Shown: positions 25,586 to 31,730 of the stretch, in pieces | Layout: each line of letters starts with the position of its first letter | Numbering within the stretch: the stretch's first letter is position 1 | DNA from: Methanoregula sp. PtaU1.Bin051 | Lineage (GTDB): Archaea; Halobacteriota; Methanomicrobia; Methanomicrobiales; Methanospirillaceae | DNA: 64,000 nt | Reading direction: 5' to 3' | Assembly: GCA_002067895.1 (NCBI GenBank) | Contig: MVRE01000013.1 | Location: 124,001 to 188,000 of the forward strand | Translations under genes and position numbers: made by a program | Notes under the pieces: generated by a model | Databases searched by the model: none | Told to the model about the DNA's origin: nothing | What the model saw: only the letters and a program-made list of their open reading frames with translations

Positions 25586-25693
25586 GGGTATATTAATGAT
25601 ATTGGTGGTGGAACAGCAGAAAACTCTTTCTCTGGGATTTATTGTATTACCCGCGTTGTCTTTTTACCCATGAAAAAAGAAGGAATAATCAGG

Positions 25694-26431
25694 ATGAACA
25701 AGATCCCTCTCGAAACAATCGGCGAGGAATCGGAGATCCGGTTCCGGGACTGCTTCTCCGTCCGGTATATCCAGTCTGCAGCCCTTCTCTGCCGGCTGGG
25801 GTACGCCATCGAAAAGGACTTTGCGAAGTCCGGGCAGGTCTCCACGGAGTCGGTTCTCTCTCACGAGGCTTTTATCCTCAACTCTGTCCTCTCAACTGTT
25901 GCTTTCCTTGAGTCCACGATCAACGAACTCTATTCTGATGTTGTCGACAATGCCTACCTCTCGTTGGACGAGAGGGGCGAAGCCCTTCTGCATAGCATAT
26001 CAGATGGATGGAGGAACGAGAAGAATTTCGATCGGGCCCCTGTGCTTACCAAATACCAGAAAATCCTGTCCATTGCAGGCATCCCGCAGTTTCCCGAGAC
26101 AGACCCGGCATTTCTTAATGTGAAGAACGTAATCGAGATCCGGAATTTCCTGATGCATTACCGGCGCGAATGGGTGGTTCTCTCGAAAAAGAAGGTAGCC
26201 GCCGGCGGTCAGGAAACACGCGGGGAAAAATTCGAAAGGGATCTCAGACATGCATTCAGGGAAAATCCCCTGGCTCATGTCAGCCGGCCGTTCTTCCCGG
26301 ACAAGTGTCTCGGGCATGGCTGTGCCGAATGGGCAATCATCAACAGCCTGATAGTGACCGACGAGTTTTTTTCAAGGCTGGGATTCGCAGCCCCCTATGA
26401 GGGGATCAGAAAAGAGTTGTTGACAAGGTAG
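25694..26431 (+). CDS. HEPN-like protein with R-x4-H motif, unknown function
   Basis: The 245-residue, mainly helical protein has E-I-R-N-F-L-M-H-Y-R-R-E-W near 152-164. R-N-F-L-M-H fits the R-x4-6-H catalytic motif of HEPN ribonucleases found in toxin-antitoxin and defence systems. No nucleotidyltransferase antitoxin is next to it. ATG 25694 has an AAGGA site about 10 nt upstream; the ATG at 25670 is a possible alternative. It is a single gene, convergent with the zinc-ribbon gene. The HEPN call rests on one motif and helical character, so it is tentative. Confidence 0.55.
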   Translation: MNKIPLETIGEESEIRFRDCFSVRYIQSAALLCRLGYAIEKDFAKSGQVSTESVLSHEAFILNSVLSTVAFLESTINELYSDVVDNAYLSLDERGEALLHSISDGWRNEKNFDRAPVLTKYQKILSIAGIPQFPETDPAFLNVKNVIEIRNFLMHYRREWVVLSKKKVAAGGQETRGEKFERDLRHAFRENPLAHVSRPFFPDKCLGHGCAEWAIINSLIVTDEFFSRLGFAAPYEGIRKELLTR

Positions 26432-26437
26432 CGGCAC

Positions 26438-26830
26438 TCAACGCTTTTTACGCTTCTTTTTCTTCTCATCCTTGACAAACGAAAGGAGGTCGATATTGTA
26501 CACACCCTCTTTTCCTACCGATATGATCCGTTCATCGCCTTTGGCCATCTTCTCGATATTCAGCTCATAGGTACCGGGCCCTACAATCCGGATCGTCTCG
26601 ACCCGGTCGTACATCTCCACCTCTTTCTGAGGCTCTGTTTTAACTTCTAGAACCTCCTCTTTGGTCTCGGTTGCGATCTCTTCGACGGACTTCTCCTCCA
26701 GTACGTCCTTGTGGATCTCCTCAGCTTTTACATAGAGAAATTTCTTGCCCCCGCAGCTGGCGCAGCCCTTAAGGATTTCAGTCGAACCGTCAGGGTATTC
26801 CCGCCCGCACTTGGTACACTTGTGTGGCAT
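26438..26830 (-). CDS. ArvC/OapC-type zinc-ribbon protein
   Basis: The 130-residue protein has an N-terminal zinc ribbon (C-T-K-C-G-R-E-Y and C-A-S-C-G-G, about 5-28), an acidic linker, then a conserved C-terminal strand region (G-P-G-T-Y-E-L-N-I-E) and a very lysine-rich tail. This layout is that of the OapC/ArvC family, which in haloarchaea sits with the GTPase ArvA and supports extracellular vesicle formation. It starts 22 bases after the GTPase gene on the same strand, so the two form an operon. The third partner (ArvB, DUF2073) is not between them. Confidence 0.75.
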   Translation of the reverse strand: MPHKCTKCGREYPDGSTEILKGCASCGGKKFLYVKAEEIHKDVLEEKSVEEIATETKEEVLEVKTEPQKEVEMYDRVETIRIVGPGTYELNIEKMAKGDERIISVGKEGVYNIDLLSFVKDEKKKKRKKR

Positions 26831-26852: not shown

Positions 26853-27506
26853 TTAACCGAATAATTCGATCATCGTCTCGTAGAGCTCTTCTGTGTTTTT
26901 TCCCTCAAGGCCCGATATGGGAATAACAGGGTGCTGGGGGAATGCGCTTCGGATACGGGCAGGCGCTGCTTCGGGAAGATCAATCTTGTTGGCGACGATA
27001 ATGACCGGCAGCTTGCGGCTCTCGATGATGCCTACCATCATGATATTGACCTGCATGAAGGGATCGATCGTGGAGTCAAGCATGTAGATGACCCCGTCGA
27101 TATCTTCGCGGAGCCAGTGCATCGCCTCGGCAACACCCTCGGTCGCCTCACGTGCCCGGATGATTGCCTCGTCCTTCTCAAGACCGAATTCAAGAAATTC
27201 GTGGTAATCGATCCTGGTAGTAACACCCGGGGTATCTACGATATCGATAGTGACAGTAGCTCCGTTTGCCCCCGAGATGATGATATCCTCCTTTCTCCGG
27301 GCACGCCGGGTCTCGTGAGGGATCTCGCTCACTGGCCCGACAGCATCGCCGGTCCAGTCGCGTGCAATCCGGTTGGCAAGGGTCGTCTTTCCTGCATTGG
27401 GGGGACCGTAAATACCGATCCTTGTCCGCTTTTTCTTGAAAAAACGGTTCAGAAAACCGGAAAATCTTTTCTTGACTCTGCCCACCGTCTGATAAAATAT
27501 CTTCAT
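26853..27506 (-). CDS. Era-like small GTPase of the ArvA/OapA vesiculation type
   Basis: The 217-residue protein has a basic N-terminus (K-K-K-R-T-R), G1 G-P-P-N-A-G-K-T, G3 D-T-P-G-V, G4 N-K-I-D and a G5-like I-S-G-L. Together with an adjacent zinc-ribbon protein it matches the archaeal ArvA (OapA) GTPase, reported to drive extracellular vesicle formation in Euryarchaeota. It probably acts on the inner face of the cytoplasmic membrane. GAGGTG precedes the ATG. The ArvA identity is inferred from sequence and gene context; generic Era-like GTPase is certain. Confidence 0.8.
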   Translation of the reverse strand: MKIFYQTVGRVKKRFSGFLNRFFKKKRTRIGIYGPPNAGKTTLANRIARDWTGDAVGPVSEIPHETRRARRKEDIIISGANGATVTIDIVDTPGVTTRIDYHEFLEFGLEKDEAIIRAREATEGVAEAMHWLREDIDGVIYMLDSTIDPFMQVNIMMVGIIESRKLPVIIVANKIDLPEAAPARIRSAFPQHPVIPISGLEGKNTEELYETMIELFG

Positions 27507-27771: not shown

Positions 27772-28338
27772 ATGAAAAAGACCGACACTCAGATTCGCTT
27801 CGAGACCCGTGTTCCCTTAAGCGAGGTAATGCGGCCCAATCCGACAACGATTAACAATGGTGCCACGGTTGCCCAGGCTGCCGCGGCCATGTGCCATGAC
27901 GACGTCGGGAGTGTAATCATCCTCGAACGGAACCTTCCCATCGGGATTGTCACCGAACAGGATATCAACTGTAAAGTTGTTGCAAAGGATCTCAAGCCAA
28001 GCACTGTCCATGTGAACGAGATCATGAGCACCCCGCTGATCACAGTGGGTGCAAAGAAGACGGTGGGGCATGCGGCCCATATGATGGTGAAGCACCGGGT
28101 AAGGAGACTCCCTGTAGTCAATGAAAAGAAGAAAGTCATCGGGATTGTCACGGTACGTGACCTCCTCACCGTCTCAAACGAGCTCAACGAGCTGATGGCT
28201 GAACTCATCGAGATTAACCGTGAGGATATTGTTGAGCCGGGTATCTGCAACCGCTGCAGCCAGATGTCTGATGACTTAAAGCGCGTGGACAACCAGATGC
28301 TCTGCGCACGGTGCAGGGAGGAGGATAAGATTACATGA
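27772..28338 (+). CDS. Two-CBS-domain protein with C-terminal zinc ribbon
   Basis: The 188-residue protein has two CBS motifs (starts at about 18 and 80; S-V-I-I-L-E-R-N-L-P-I-G-I-V-T and H-R-V-R-R-L-P-V-V-N) that form one nucleotide-binding Bateman module. A zinc ribbon C-x2-C-x15-C-x2-C follows near 161-183. CBS pairs often bind AMP, ATP, SAM or NAD; the ligand is unknown here. It opens a five-gene run of CBS proteins and overlaps the next gene by four bases (ATGA). Confidence 0.88.
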   Translation: MKKTDTQIRFETRVPLSEVMRPNPTTINNGATVAQAAAAMCHDDVGSVIILERNLPIGIVTEQDINCKVVAKDLKPSTVHVNEIMSTPLITVGAKKTVGHAAHMMVKHRVRRLPVVNEKKKVIGIVTVRDLLTVSNELNELMAELIEINREDIVEPGICNRCSQMSDDLKRVDNQMLCARCREEDKIT

Positions 28339-29084
28339 AACTGGCACAGGATTTCCTCGTTGAGATTCCTGTGCTGCGTTTCAATGACCGGTTGACAAAG
28401 GCCAGGCAGATCCTCAGGGATGACCGGTTCCGCGAAGTCTACGTCGTTAATGACAGGAAAAAACTGTTAGGTTTTGTCGACATTACTGATGGTCTTCGCG
28501 TAACCGCCACGAAATCCAATGTTACCGTCGAAGGGTTCGTCAAGGACGCAGCAGAGGTGTACCGGGAGGACACCGTCGAGCAGCTGGCCCGTCAGATCCG
28601 TAAATTCCGCACAGACAGCGCCGTCGTAATCGACAAGGAGCGGTTCGTGATCGGGGGCGTGCTTCTATCGGATATCTTCCCAGTAATCGTCTCGCGCAAT
28701 AAGCTTCATGGTACAGTTAAGGATTTTATGTCCCGTACCGTTGTCGCAGCACAGGCAACTGATACGATCCAGCATGTCTATACCCTGGTACTGGAGAGCG
28801 GGTACTCGGCATTTCCGGTCCTGAAAAAAAAGAAACTTGCCGGCATGATATCGCGGCGCGATCTCATTGCCGGCGGAAGGGTACGGACGACCCTGACGAA
28901 CGCAGCCCGTGCGACTGTCGAAAGCCTAATGGTGAGGGATGTCTTCACAATCGGTCCGGATGAAGCGATCAGCACTGCTGCCGATCTCCTCGTCCGCCAT
29001 GACGTGAGCAGGCTTCCGGTCCTTGAGGGAGAATCACTTGTCGGGATCGTGAGCCGGCATGATGTCCTGTCCGGGCTCCGCTGA
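28335..29084 (+). CDS. Four-CBS-domain protein
   Basis: The 249-residue protein consists of four CBS repeats (about 1-60, 65-120, 127-180, 190-249), the last with F-T-I-G-P-D-E-A-I-S-T-A-A and S-R-L-P-V-L-E-G. No enzyme, transporter or DNA-binding domain is attached. It is translationally coupled to the CBS/zinc-ribbon gene upstream and followed by another CBS gene. The second repeat is more divergent than the others. A nucleotide-sensing or scaffold role is likely; partners are unknown. Confidence 0.88.
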   Translation: MKLAQDFLVEIPVLRFNDRLTKARQILRDDRFREVYVVNDRKKLLGFVDITDGLRVTATKSNVTVEGFVKDAAEVYREDTVEQLARQIRKFRTDSAVVIDKERFVIGGVLLSDIFPVIVSRNKLHGTVKDFMSRTVVAAQATDTIQHVYTLVLESGYSAFPVLKKKKLAGMISRRDLIAGGRVRTTLTNAARATVESLMVRDVFTIGPDEAISTAADLLVRHDVSRLPVLEGESLVGIVSRHDVLSGLR

Positions 29085-29185
29085 ATTGCATCACGATATG
29101 CCAACTAAGACCAACCAAGGAGAAGAAAAGGTCTTTTCCCTGTCTGTTCAGGATGGGGACAACGCAAGGGAGGGATACCAAGAAC

Positions 29186-30130
29186 ATGAATAACCGGGGT
29201 ATCAAGCAGGGGGATAAACTGCTCAAGATGCACGGAAAATTCGACCGGGGCCCGGTCGAGTTCCGGTCCCATATCGTACCGCAGGAAGGGGAGATCATGG
29301 CGCTTGCCAGCCGCAATGTCATTTCGGTTCCGCCGACAACGACCATTATTGCGGCAGTCGAGACCATGACGAAGTGCGGCTTCAGGAGACTGCCGGTGAC
29401 AGATGCCGGTACCAGGAAACTGCGGGGAATCGTTACCTCCGGAGACATTATCAACTTCATGGGTGGCGGTGACAAGTACCAGCTCGTGCAGGTGAAACAT
29501 GGCGGCAACCTGATCTCTGCAGTCAACGAACACGTGCGGGCGGTCATGACCCAGCAGCCGGTAACCCTGCCGGAGACAGCAACGATAGCCGATGCGGTGG
29601 AGATTATCGTAAACAGGAAGATTGGCGGGCTTCCCATAACTGACGGGGACGGTGTGCTGACTGCAATCACAACGGAACGCGACGTAATGCGGGTGCTTGC
29701 GATGGAAAGGAGCAGGCTCAATGTGGAGGAGGTGATGACGGCAGCCCTGAGGGTGACGCATCCCGACCGCCCTATTGCAGAGGTGACGAAGGAGATGACC
29801 CGGTACCGCTTCCGGCGGCTTCCGGTTGTGAGCGACGATGTGCTGTACGGCATCATCACTGCTACCGATATCATGCGGTACCTAGGCAGCCGTGAGGTCT
29901 TCGCCCGGATCTCGACCGGGGACATTACCGAAGTGACGAATCTTCCCGTCCGCTCACTCATTGCAGGAGACCTCTATACGATCGATCCCAAGAAGAGTAT
30001 AAATGATGCGGCAAAAGAGATGCTGGAGCGTAACATCGGGGCGCTCCCCGTGATTGAGGATGCCCGCCTGATCGGGCTCATTACCGAGTTCGATCTTGTG
30101 CGGGCGTTTGCCCGGAGGTTATGTCATTGA
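29186..30130 (+). CDS. Four-CBS-domain protein with basic N-terminal extension
   Basis: After about 35 basic residues (K-Q-G-D-K-L-L-K-M-H-G-K-F) the protein has four CBS motifs (at about 45, 125, 185 and 245 of 314), each ending in a G-I-I/V-T type strand. The ATG at 29186 follows AGGGAGGG; an in-frame ATG at 29153 would add 11 residues and lacks a site. It overlaps the next CBS gene by 10 bases. In some archaea such multi-CBS proteins are partners of metabolic enzymes; none is attached here. Confidence 0.85.
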   Translation: MNNRGIKQGDKLLKMHGKFDRGPVEFRSHIVPQEGEIMALASRNVISVPPTTTIIAAVETMTKCGFRRLPVTDAGTRKLRGIVTSGDIINFMGGGDKYQLVQVKHGGNLISAVNEHVRAVMTQQPVTLPETATIADAVEIIVNRKIGGLPITDGDGVLTAITTERDVMRVLAMERSRLNVEEVMTAALRVTHPDRPIAEVTKEMTRYRFRRLPVVSDDVLYGIITATDIMRYLGSREVFARISTGDITEVTNLPVRSLIAGDLYTIDPKKSINDAAKEMLERNIGALPVIEDARLIGLITEFDLVRAFARRLCH

Positions 30131-30957
30131 AAGCAGCTGACATTATGTCCGCACCGGTCCGGGTGGTTTCGCCATCGGACACCATAGCGCATGCCCGCAG
30201 GTGCATGGTCAGGTACCGCATATCGCGTCTTCTTATTGTAGAAGATGGTGCGCTGACCGGCATCGTAACGAAAAAGGATCTGGCATACCGGCTCCGGCAG
30301 AGCGAGCCTGCATGGCGACGGCGCCCGATTGACCATATACCTGTCAGCGTGATCGCAATCCCTGATCCGATAACAGTTACTCCTTCAACAAGTGTCCGGG
30401 AGATTGCAGCCCTCTTTGTCGAGCATGCAATCAGCAGCGTGCCGGTTATGGGGGGTGATGAAGTGGCGGGAATAATCACGAAATCCGACCTGATGCGATC
30501 AGCATCATTCCAGAACCTGAAAGGTTCGGTTCAGGACCTGATGGAAGACGTGGTAACAGTAAGCCGGCTCCATTCGCTCGACCATGTCATTGATGTCATG
30601 AGCGAACGTAACGATAAGGTGGTGGTAACCAATAATGATGGATCCATTGCAGGAATTATAACGGAGACAAACCTTGCATTCCTCGAGAACGGGGAGCAGA
30701 TCTCCGGTATCGCTTACAAACGCGTTCCTGTTAACCGGCAAAAACCTTTCCGGGCAATGCGGGCGCTTGTTGTCGGTCCTGTGACTGCCGAGGACATCAT
30801 GACATCTCCGATCCGTACAACGGCACCGGAAACTCCTTTGAACAGGGCTATAGCCGATATGAACCGGTATGGTATCAACAGTCTGGTGGTTGTTGATGAT
30901 AAAGACATAGTTGGCATTATAAAACGTGACGATATTATCATGGAGGTGGCAAAATGA
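30121..30957 (+). CDS. Four-CBS-domain protein
   Basis: The 278-residue protein has four CBS repeats: V-R-V-V-S-P-S-D-T-I, I-T-V-T-P-S-T-S-V, V-V-T-V-S-R-L-H-S-L and I-R-T-T-A-P-E-T-P-L open the repeats at about 12, 78, 140 and 225. A linker of about 30 residues before the last repeat is rich in basic residues. It starts within the end of the preceding gene (GGAGG before the ATG) and ends in an ATGA overlap with the next, so all are made together. No other domain is present. Confidence 0.88.
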   Translation: MSLKAADIMSAPVRVVSPSDTIAHARRCMVRYRISRLLIVEDGALTGIVTKKDLAYRLRQSEPAWRRRPIDHIPVSVIAIPDPITVTPSTSVREIAALFVEHAISSVPVMGGDEVAGIITKSDLMRSASFQNLKGSVQDLMEDVVTVSRLHSLDHVIDVMSERNDKVVVTNNDGSIAGIITETNLAFLENGEQISGIAYKRVPVNRQKPFRAMRALVVGPVTAEDIMTSPIRTTAPETPLNRAIADMNRYGINSLVVVDDKDIVGIIKRDDIIMEVAK

Positions 30958-31730
30958 CAAAAGAGCTGTTCGTAAAAGACGTAATGACAAAACCAGTAAC
31001 AATCGCAAAATCCGCAAAGCTGACTGAAGCGCTTGACAAGATGCTTTCAGAGGGTGCCGACCCGCTGATCGCTACCAACCAAACCAATGTTACCGGCACG
31101 GTTTCCAGAGAGGCCATTGCCAGAAAGCTCGGTAACAGGCATGATGCCGCAATTGCCCCGGCCTCACTTCATGTTTCCAGTGTCGTGGACGAGGATTTTA
31201 CAGGCGTATATCCCGATGAAAGCATCAACGTATTGATCCCCCTGCTCCAGCGTTACAAGCTTGTTGTCGTTTATGACAGCGATCATAAACTTCTCGGGCA
31301 GGTCGGTGCGATTGACATCCTCCGGAAACTCAAACCTGAAGGCAATATTTCCGATGTGCTGGAAAAATGCATCACCATTGAGGCCGATGAGCGGGTTGTC
31401 CACCTCCGCCGGAGGATGCTGGATGATGCTATATCACGGTTCATCGTGACAGAGAATGAGCGGATCACCGGGATCGTGACCGAGACCGATGTTGCCGTAG
31501 CGATGCGTAAGTTCCGCGAAGCAGTATCCGGAAAACACCAGGACCACCAGATCCGGAACCTTCTGGTAAAAGACATCATGAAAACGCCGGTCCTGTCTGT
31601 TGACTGCAGCGCAACGATTGCCGAGATCGTCGATCTCATGCTGAAAAAGAATATCGGATCGATACCCGTCACCGACAAGGGAAAACTGGTCGGGATGGTA
31701 ACACGGCGTTCTCTTGTCAATGCCCTTTAA
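30954..31730 (+). CDS. Four-CBS-domain protein, last of the cluster
   Basis: The 258-residue protein has four CBS repeats (about 1-60, 68-125, 130-180, 195-258), including K-P-V-T-I-A-K-S-A-K-L-T and T-P-V-L-S-V-D-C-S-A-T-I-A-E. The first two are degenerate at the usual nucleotide-contact strand; the last two are better conserved. ATGA overlap with the previous gene indicates coupled translation. A T-rich run follows the stop and probably terminates the operon. Confidence 0.87.
   Translation: MTKELFVKDVMTKPVTIAKSAKLTEALDKMLSEGADPLIATNQTNVTGTVSREAIARKLGNRHDAAIAPASLHVSSVVDEDFTGVYPDESINVLIPLLQRYKLVVVYDSDHKLLGQVGAIDILRKLKPEGNISDVLEKCITIEADERVVHLRRRMLDDAISRFIVTENERITGIVTETDVAVAMRKFREAVSGKHQDHQIRNLLVKDIMKTPVLSVDCSATIAEIVDLMLKKNIGSIPVTDKGKLVGMVTRRSLVNAL

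Follow-up and report, generated by a model that had tools for sequence, protein, structure and literature searches.

Several of the systems closest to the array examined here are archaeal CBS-module proteins linked to the ribosome. HibA of Pyrococcus and Thermococcus, in which a CBS module is joined to a RaiA domain (PMC13324472), uses a four-CBS module in ribosome hibernation, and Dri of Pyrobaculum calidifontis (9E6Q, 9E7F) is a single protein whose two fused four-CBS modules bind to the archaeal ribosome. In addition, CBS-module proteins, often encoded in gene clusters, were found in dormant ribosomes of M. acetivorans; the stand-alone four-CBS families CM-1, CM-2, CM-4 and CM-5, some of which are among these ribosome-associated proteins, rarely occur alongside HibA (Madru et al. 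2026, PMC13324472). Three PDB entries released on 2026-01-28, whose titles came from a search for folds similar to the P3 model described below, contain the M. acetivorans 70S ribosome in complex with SriA and SriB (9ZNF), SriD (9ZNG), and SriC and SriD (9ZNI). As described here, the five-gene array of Methanoregula is very probably the Methanoregulaceae version of this Sri ribosome-hibernation operon. It had been annotated initially as an undescribed system, a claim that no longer holds given 9ZNF, 9ZNG and 9ZNI and the CBS-module families and clusters of PMC13324472; it is a further instance of a system described in 2025-2026, and the new question that it poses is the role of its head gene, P1. 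An array of 18 CBS domains that had been puzzling can thus be tested, in environmental methanogens, as an operon for ribosome hibernation.

The array lies within a window of 64,000 nucleotides (the whole stretch of DNA that was analysed) and, in the list of open reading frames of this window, consists of five collinear frames, designated P1 to P5, on the + strand from 27772 to 31730. A local CBS profile counted 2+4+4+4+4 domains, 18 in total; 17 of the 18 were detected by Pfam, and the weakest domain (13 bits) spans residues 65-125 of P2. The head gene P1 (27772-28338) encodes a 188-aa protein with two CBS domains (Pfam CBS x2) and a C-terminal zinc ribbon, CxxC-x15-CxxC (C159, C162, C178, C181; 28246-28314, + strand), whose columns are nearly invariant in the alignment of its orthologs (A1). 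P1 and P2 overlap by 4 nt, P3 and P4 by 10 nt, and P4 and P5 by 4 nt. The listed start of P3 (29153) is probably too early, since the alignments of relatives begin at its residues 10-13, and an ATG at 29186 gives a protein of 314 aa that fits the length of the orthologs (313-315 aa); with this start, the gap between P2 and P3 is approximately 100 nt. The Shine-Dalgarno sequence GGAGGTGATC precedes P1 (27760-27769, + strand) and is an exact match, the only 10-mer in the whole window, on either strand, to match the canonical sequence. No enzyme or transporter domain was detected by Pfam in P1 to P5. These results bear out the initial annotation of the layout, which had described five CBS-only genes with overlaps or short gaps, a zinc ribbon on the first, the strongest Shine-Dalgarno of the window ahead of them, and neither enzyme nor transporter among them.

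When the four-CBS proteins were searched by sequence against the PDB, each of them best matched a different chain among chains 4 to 7 of 9ZNF, 9ZNG and 9ZNI, in a one-to-one manner: P2 (28335-29084, + strand) matched 9znf_4 (1e-26), P3 (29186-30130, + strand) matched 9znf_5 (5e-72), P4 (30121-30957, + strand) matched 9zni_6 (8e-48) and P5 (30954-31730, + strand) matched 9zni_7 and 9zng_7 (5e-40). A search with the window's own uS13 found this ribosomal protein in all three entries. Since chain 7 is common to 9ZNG and 9ZNI, it corresponds to SriD, and chain 6 corresponds to SriC; chains 4 and 5 were assigned to SriA and SriB by their order. On sequence grounds, P2, P3, P4 and P5 are therefore orthologs of SriA, SriB, SriC and SriD, respectively, and the titles and shared entries place these orthologs on the ribosome. 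Identity to the solved Sri chains is just 27-45%, so ribosome binding by the window proteins is transferred by orthology, and SriA to SriD of M. acetivorans have been seen on the 70S ribosome whereas the window array is known from its sequence. Weak sequence similarity to Dri was also found in all four proteins, and the fold of P3 (AF2 model, pLDDT 86) matches it too; however, Dri carries its two modules in one protein and the array encodes them as separate genes. As stand-alone four-CBS proteins encoded in a cluster, P2 to P5 can be likened to CM-1, CM-2, CM-4 and CM-5 as a set, without one-to-one family numbers.

Among the 31 genomes of Methanosarcina (a genus assigned by inference), one encodes chain 4 at 100% identity. 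In this genome the four Sri chains correspond to four consecutive genes (L212:6490-11017; 100% identity over the aligned parts), and the gene that precedes them (L212:5506-6135) encodes a protein with two CBS domains and a zinc ribbon that resembles P1. The gene order of the source genome (L212:5506-11017) is thus that of the window (27772-31730), indicating that the five-gene unit is equivalent in both genera, although the genes are spaced in Methanosarcina and tightly overlapping in the window.

Many families of the phylum share the gene order P1-P2-P3-P4-P5, with lineage-specific losses, which argues that the array is not a chance arrangement; the refuting condition named in the initial annotation, an array absent in all relatives and decaying, is thereby excluded. 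Full-length P3 orthologs are present throughout the order. Some Methanomicrobiales are without P2 and/or P4, family f9 retains P1 and P3, a Methanosarcinaceae genus (g68) retains P1, P4 and P5, and in another genus (f3/g26) P1 has mostly been lost while P3 and P5 are retained. The closest named relatives are metagenome-assembled genomes labelled Methanoregula sp., several of them from Lac Pavin, with P3 78% identical. In a tree of 86 CBS modules, P2, P3, P4 and P5 each formed one clade with the matching PDB chain inside (support 100, 100, 100 and 98, respectively), and a sister-group placement of HibA received a support of 43. Since each of P2 to P5 forms a single well-supported clade, the duplications are older than the sampled members of the phylum, and the array existed before most of the lineages sampled diverged. 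The tandem duplication that repeat phylogeny had been expected to reveal can accordingly be accepted as a very old event, and a recent expansion was ruled out by the tree.

Several variants of the array were observed. In one Methanosarcinaceae genome the orthologs of P3 and P4 are fused into a single protein of 630 aa with eight CBS domains (L075:8543-10435), an arrangement reminiscent of Dri. In some Methanoregula a sixth gene, a paralog of P5 that is 53-59% identical to P5 of the window, follows P5 (L120:8596-9378, L121:8599-9375, L127:8594-9409 and L134:4435-5211). The host genome encodes two more four-CBS proteins on other contigs (L200:854-1678 and L201:895-1740), and these fall outside the Sri clades.

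By orthology to the deposited complexes, each of P2 to P5 would form a disc-like module of four CBS domains and bind to the 70S ribosome, the deposited pairs being SriA with SriB and SriC with SriD. Bound modules would occupy sites required for translation, and idle ribosomes would be inactivated and protected when energy is limited; the binding is expected to be inhibitory and reversible, although the PDB titles state "in complex" and not "inhibits". Adenylate-type CBS pockets may report the energy state of the cell. A ribose-binding type motif, G-x-x-[ST]-x-x-D, was found in most pockets of P1 (read directly from its sequence), P3 and P4, but in only some of those of P2 and P5. The CBS module of HibA binds AMP best (Kd 12 uM; PMC13324472), which makes energy sensing by the array plausible, and AMP or ATP in the CBS pockets may tune the binding of the Sri modules. 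Two elements could contact rRNA. One is the loop between CBS3 and CBS4 of P4 (30685-30789, + strand), a candidate ribosome contact of 35 aa with a net charge of +4; among P4 orthologs this loop has 33-39 aa and, for the most part, a charge of +3 to +7, compared to 7-24 aa in the majority of P2, P3 and P5 orthologs, and Dri and HibA have a long loop at the equivalent position (PMC13324472). The other is the N-terminal tail of P3 (29186-29287, + strand), which has a pLDDT below 50 at residues 1-31 and bears the family motif DRGPVEFKxRI (consensus of alignment A2). P1 may act in the same pathway, for example as a sensor, loader or release partner.

The initial annotation had proposed a multi-subunit nucleotide sensor that governs methanogenic enzymes in trans. 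The part of this proposal that remains plausible, from the pocket motifs and the AMP binding of HibA, is a multi-protein CBS set that works in trans and probably responds to adenylates; the target, however, is the ribosome, to which orthologs of P2 to P5, four of the five proteins, are bound. The host genome does carry mcrA, adenylate binding is frequent among CBS domains, and across the phylum P3 tends to occur in genomes with mcrA (odds ratio 3.5). Yet the presence of P3 does not track mcrA, as among 247 genomes 53 of the 154 with P3 are without detected mcrA and 33 of the 134 with mcrA are without P3; furthermore, no methanogenesis gene was found among the conserved flanks checked. A link to methanogenesis was ruled out by this distribution of mcrA, and we regard control of methanogenic enzymes as very improbable indeed. 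A second alternative is that the proteins are free adenylate sensors or transcription factors with no relation to the ribosome, similar to AMPK gamma or HhpR; HhpR shows that a stand-alone CBS module may serve as a transcription factor (PMC13324472). P3 matches MJ1225 (3kh5, 2e-59), labelled a putative archaeal gamma-AMPK homolog, MJ1225 is an ortholog that falls in the P3 clade of the tree, and the P3 model matches AMPK gamma. However, the ribosome-bound SriB chain lies in the same clade and is closer to P3 than MJ1225 is (5e-72 vs 2e-59), and the AMPK label is older than the ribosome structures; the label was therefore not adopted for P3. HhpR (CM-3) and the AMPK-gamma-like CM-6 stand outside the hibernation-linked CM families (PMC13324472). 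A free sensor or transcription factor of this kind is thus a very unlikely account of the array. The five-gene array contains no kinase gene.

The distribution of HibA, an alternative factor for hibernation in archaea, was compared with that of the array. The Pfam S30AE profile was too weak as a detector of HibA, with matches in 23 of 247 genomes, and was replaced by an alignment of the C-terminal part of HibA built in this study, which detected HibA in 88 of the 247. In all 247 genomes, HibA was found in 43 of the 154 with P3 and in 45 of the 93 without it. Outside the families f9 and f14, HibA was present in 0 of 110 genomes with P3 vs 45 of 93 genomes without P3, a comparison in which the two families were excluded post hoc, after the data had been seen, and in which the genomes are not independent, so its p-values should not be read literally. 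The comparison outside f9 and f14 speaks for the hibernation reading of the array, in line with the rare co-occurrence of HibA and stand-alone CBS modules described in PMC13324472; the 43 genomes of f9 and f14, which hold P3 together with HibA, count against this reading. Neither the S30AE profile nor our alignment detected HibA in the window genome. HibA itself carries its RaiA/HPF domain C-terminal to the CBS module, and Pfam detected no HPF/RaiA domain in P1 to P5, which sets the array proteins apart from HibA.

Across the phylum, no other gene of the array is retained as constantly as the head gene P1. Orthologs of P1 were found in 151 of the 154 genomes with P3 (E<=1e-50; tallied by hand from match tables), and in the HibA-only families f13, f17, f21 and f23 the search with P1 yielded only weak matches. 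The CxxC-x15-CxxC ribbon was kept in 24 of 25 orthologs. The AF2 model of P1 (mean pLDDT 84) matches Ta0289 (2qh1/1pvm) over 151-168 columns; with its CBS pair and four-cysteine ribbon, P1 belongs with the Ta0289-like CBS-zinc-ribbon proteins and shares the fold of Ta0289 (1PVM, 2QH1; CBS-rubredoxin-like), CBS pair and metal-binding ribbon included, along most of its length, but at only ~20% identity. In one Methanosarcina array the head gene is a tandem fusion of two P1 copies (L102:6705-7970; 421 aa, four CBS domains and two ribbons).

Whether P1 belongs to the hibernation machinery is a matter on which the evidence points both ways. A search of the PDB found no ribosome-bound structure of P1 or a relative, and the main text of PMC13324472 makes no mention of a zinc or ribbon domain. 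Where P3 is missing, P1 is accompanied by P4 and P5 in g68 and is solitary in the P3-less families f10 and f24, which ruled out P1 as a gene exclusive to the array. These observations, together with the genus f3/g26 noted above, would fit a hibernation set made up of P2 to P5 only, with P1 sharing the operon as an independent sensor of metal or redox state, and we give this close to an even chance. In contrast, P1 heads nearly all arrays examined, even the reduced ones of f9 and g68, and its presence in nearly all P3-bearing genomes likewise speaks against a passenger. We tentatively propose, as a possibility somewhat short of even, that P1 is an unrecognised fifth Sri component, a sensor of adenylates (perhaps also of metal or redox state) that would load, clamp or release Sri modules on the ribosome. 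Component and independent passenger are about equally likely, and the genetically tractable M. acetivorans offers a way to test the role of this conserved gene. At the three solitary loci read, one in f10 and two in f24, P1 adjoins a RadA-like gene, as judged by eye (L214:9299-9871, L215:4419-4973 and L216:8078-8632).

Upstream of the array and divergent from P1, a small GTPase gene (26853-27506, - strand; Pfam MMR_HSR1; OapA-like by context) and the gene for the origin-associated protein OapC (26438-26830, - strand; PF09845, 1e-41) lie outside the array. In many families a conserved cluster of this GTPase, OapB and OapC adjoins the array; at the window locus, OapB is missing between the GTPase and OapC. 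Within the order, the conserved neighbours also include deoxyhypusine synthase and uS13. The Methanosarcina arrays (L212/L213 of genome G387 and L071 of G301) are located ~8-15 kb from an Orc1/Cdc6 gene and thus close to a likely replication origin; in the window genome, Cdc6 is encoded on contigs other than that of the array. A further gene (25670-26431, + strand) encodes a 253-aa protein that has no Pfam match; two relatives (L034 and L041) also have it next to the array.
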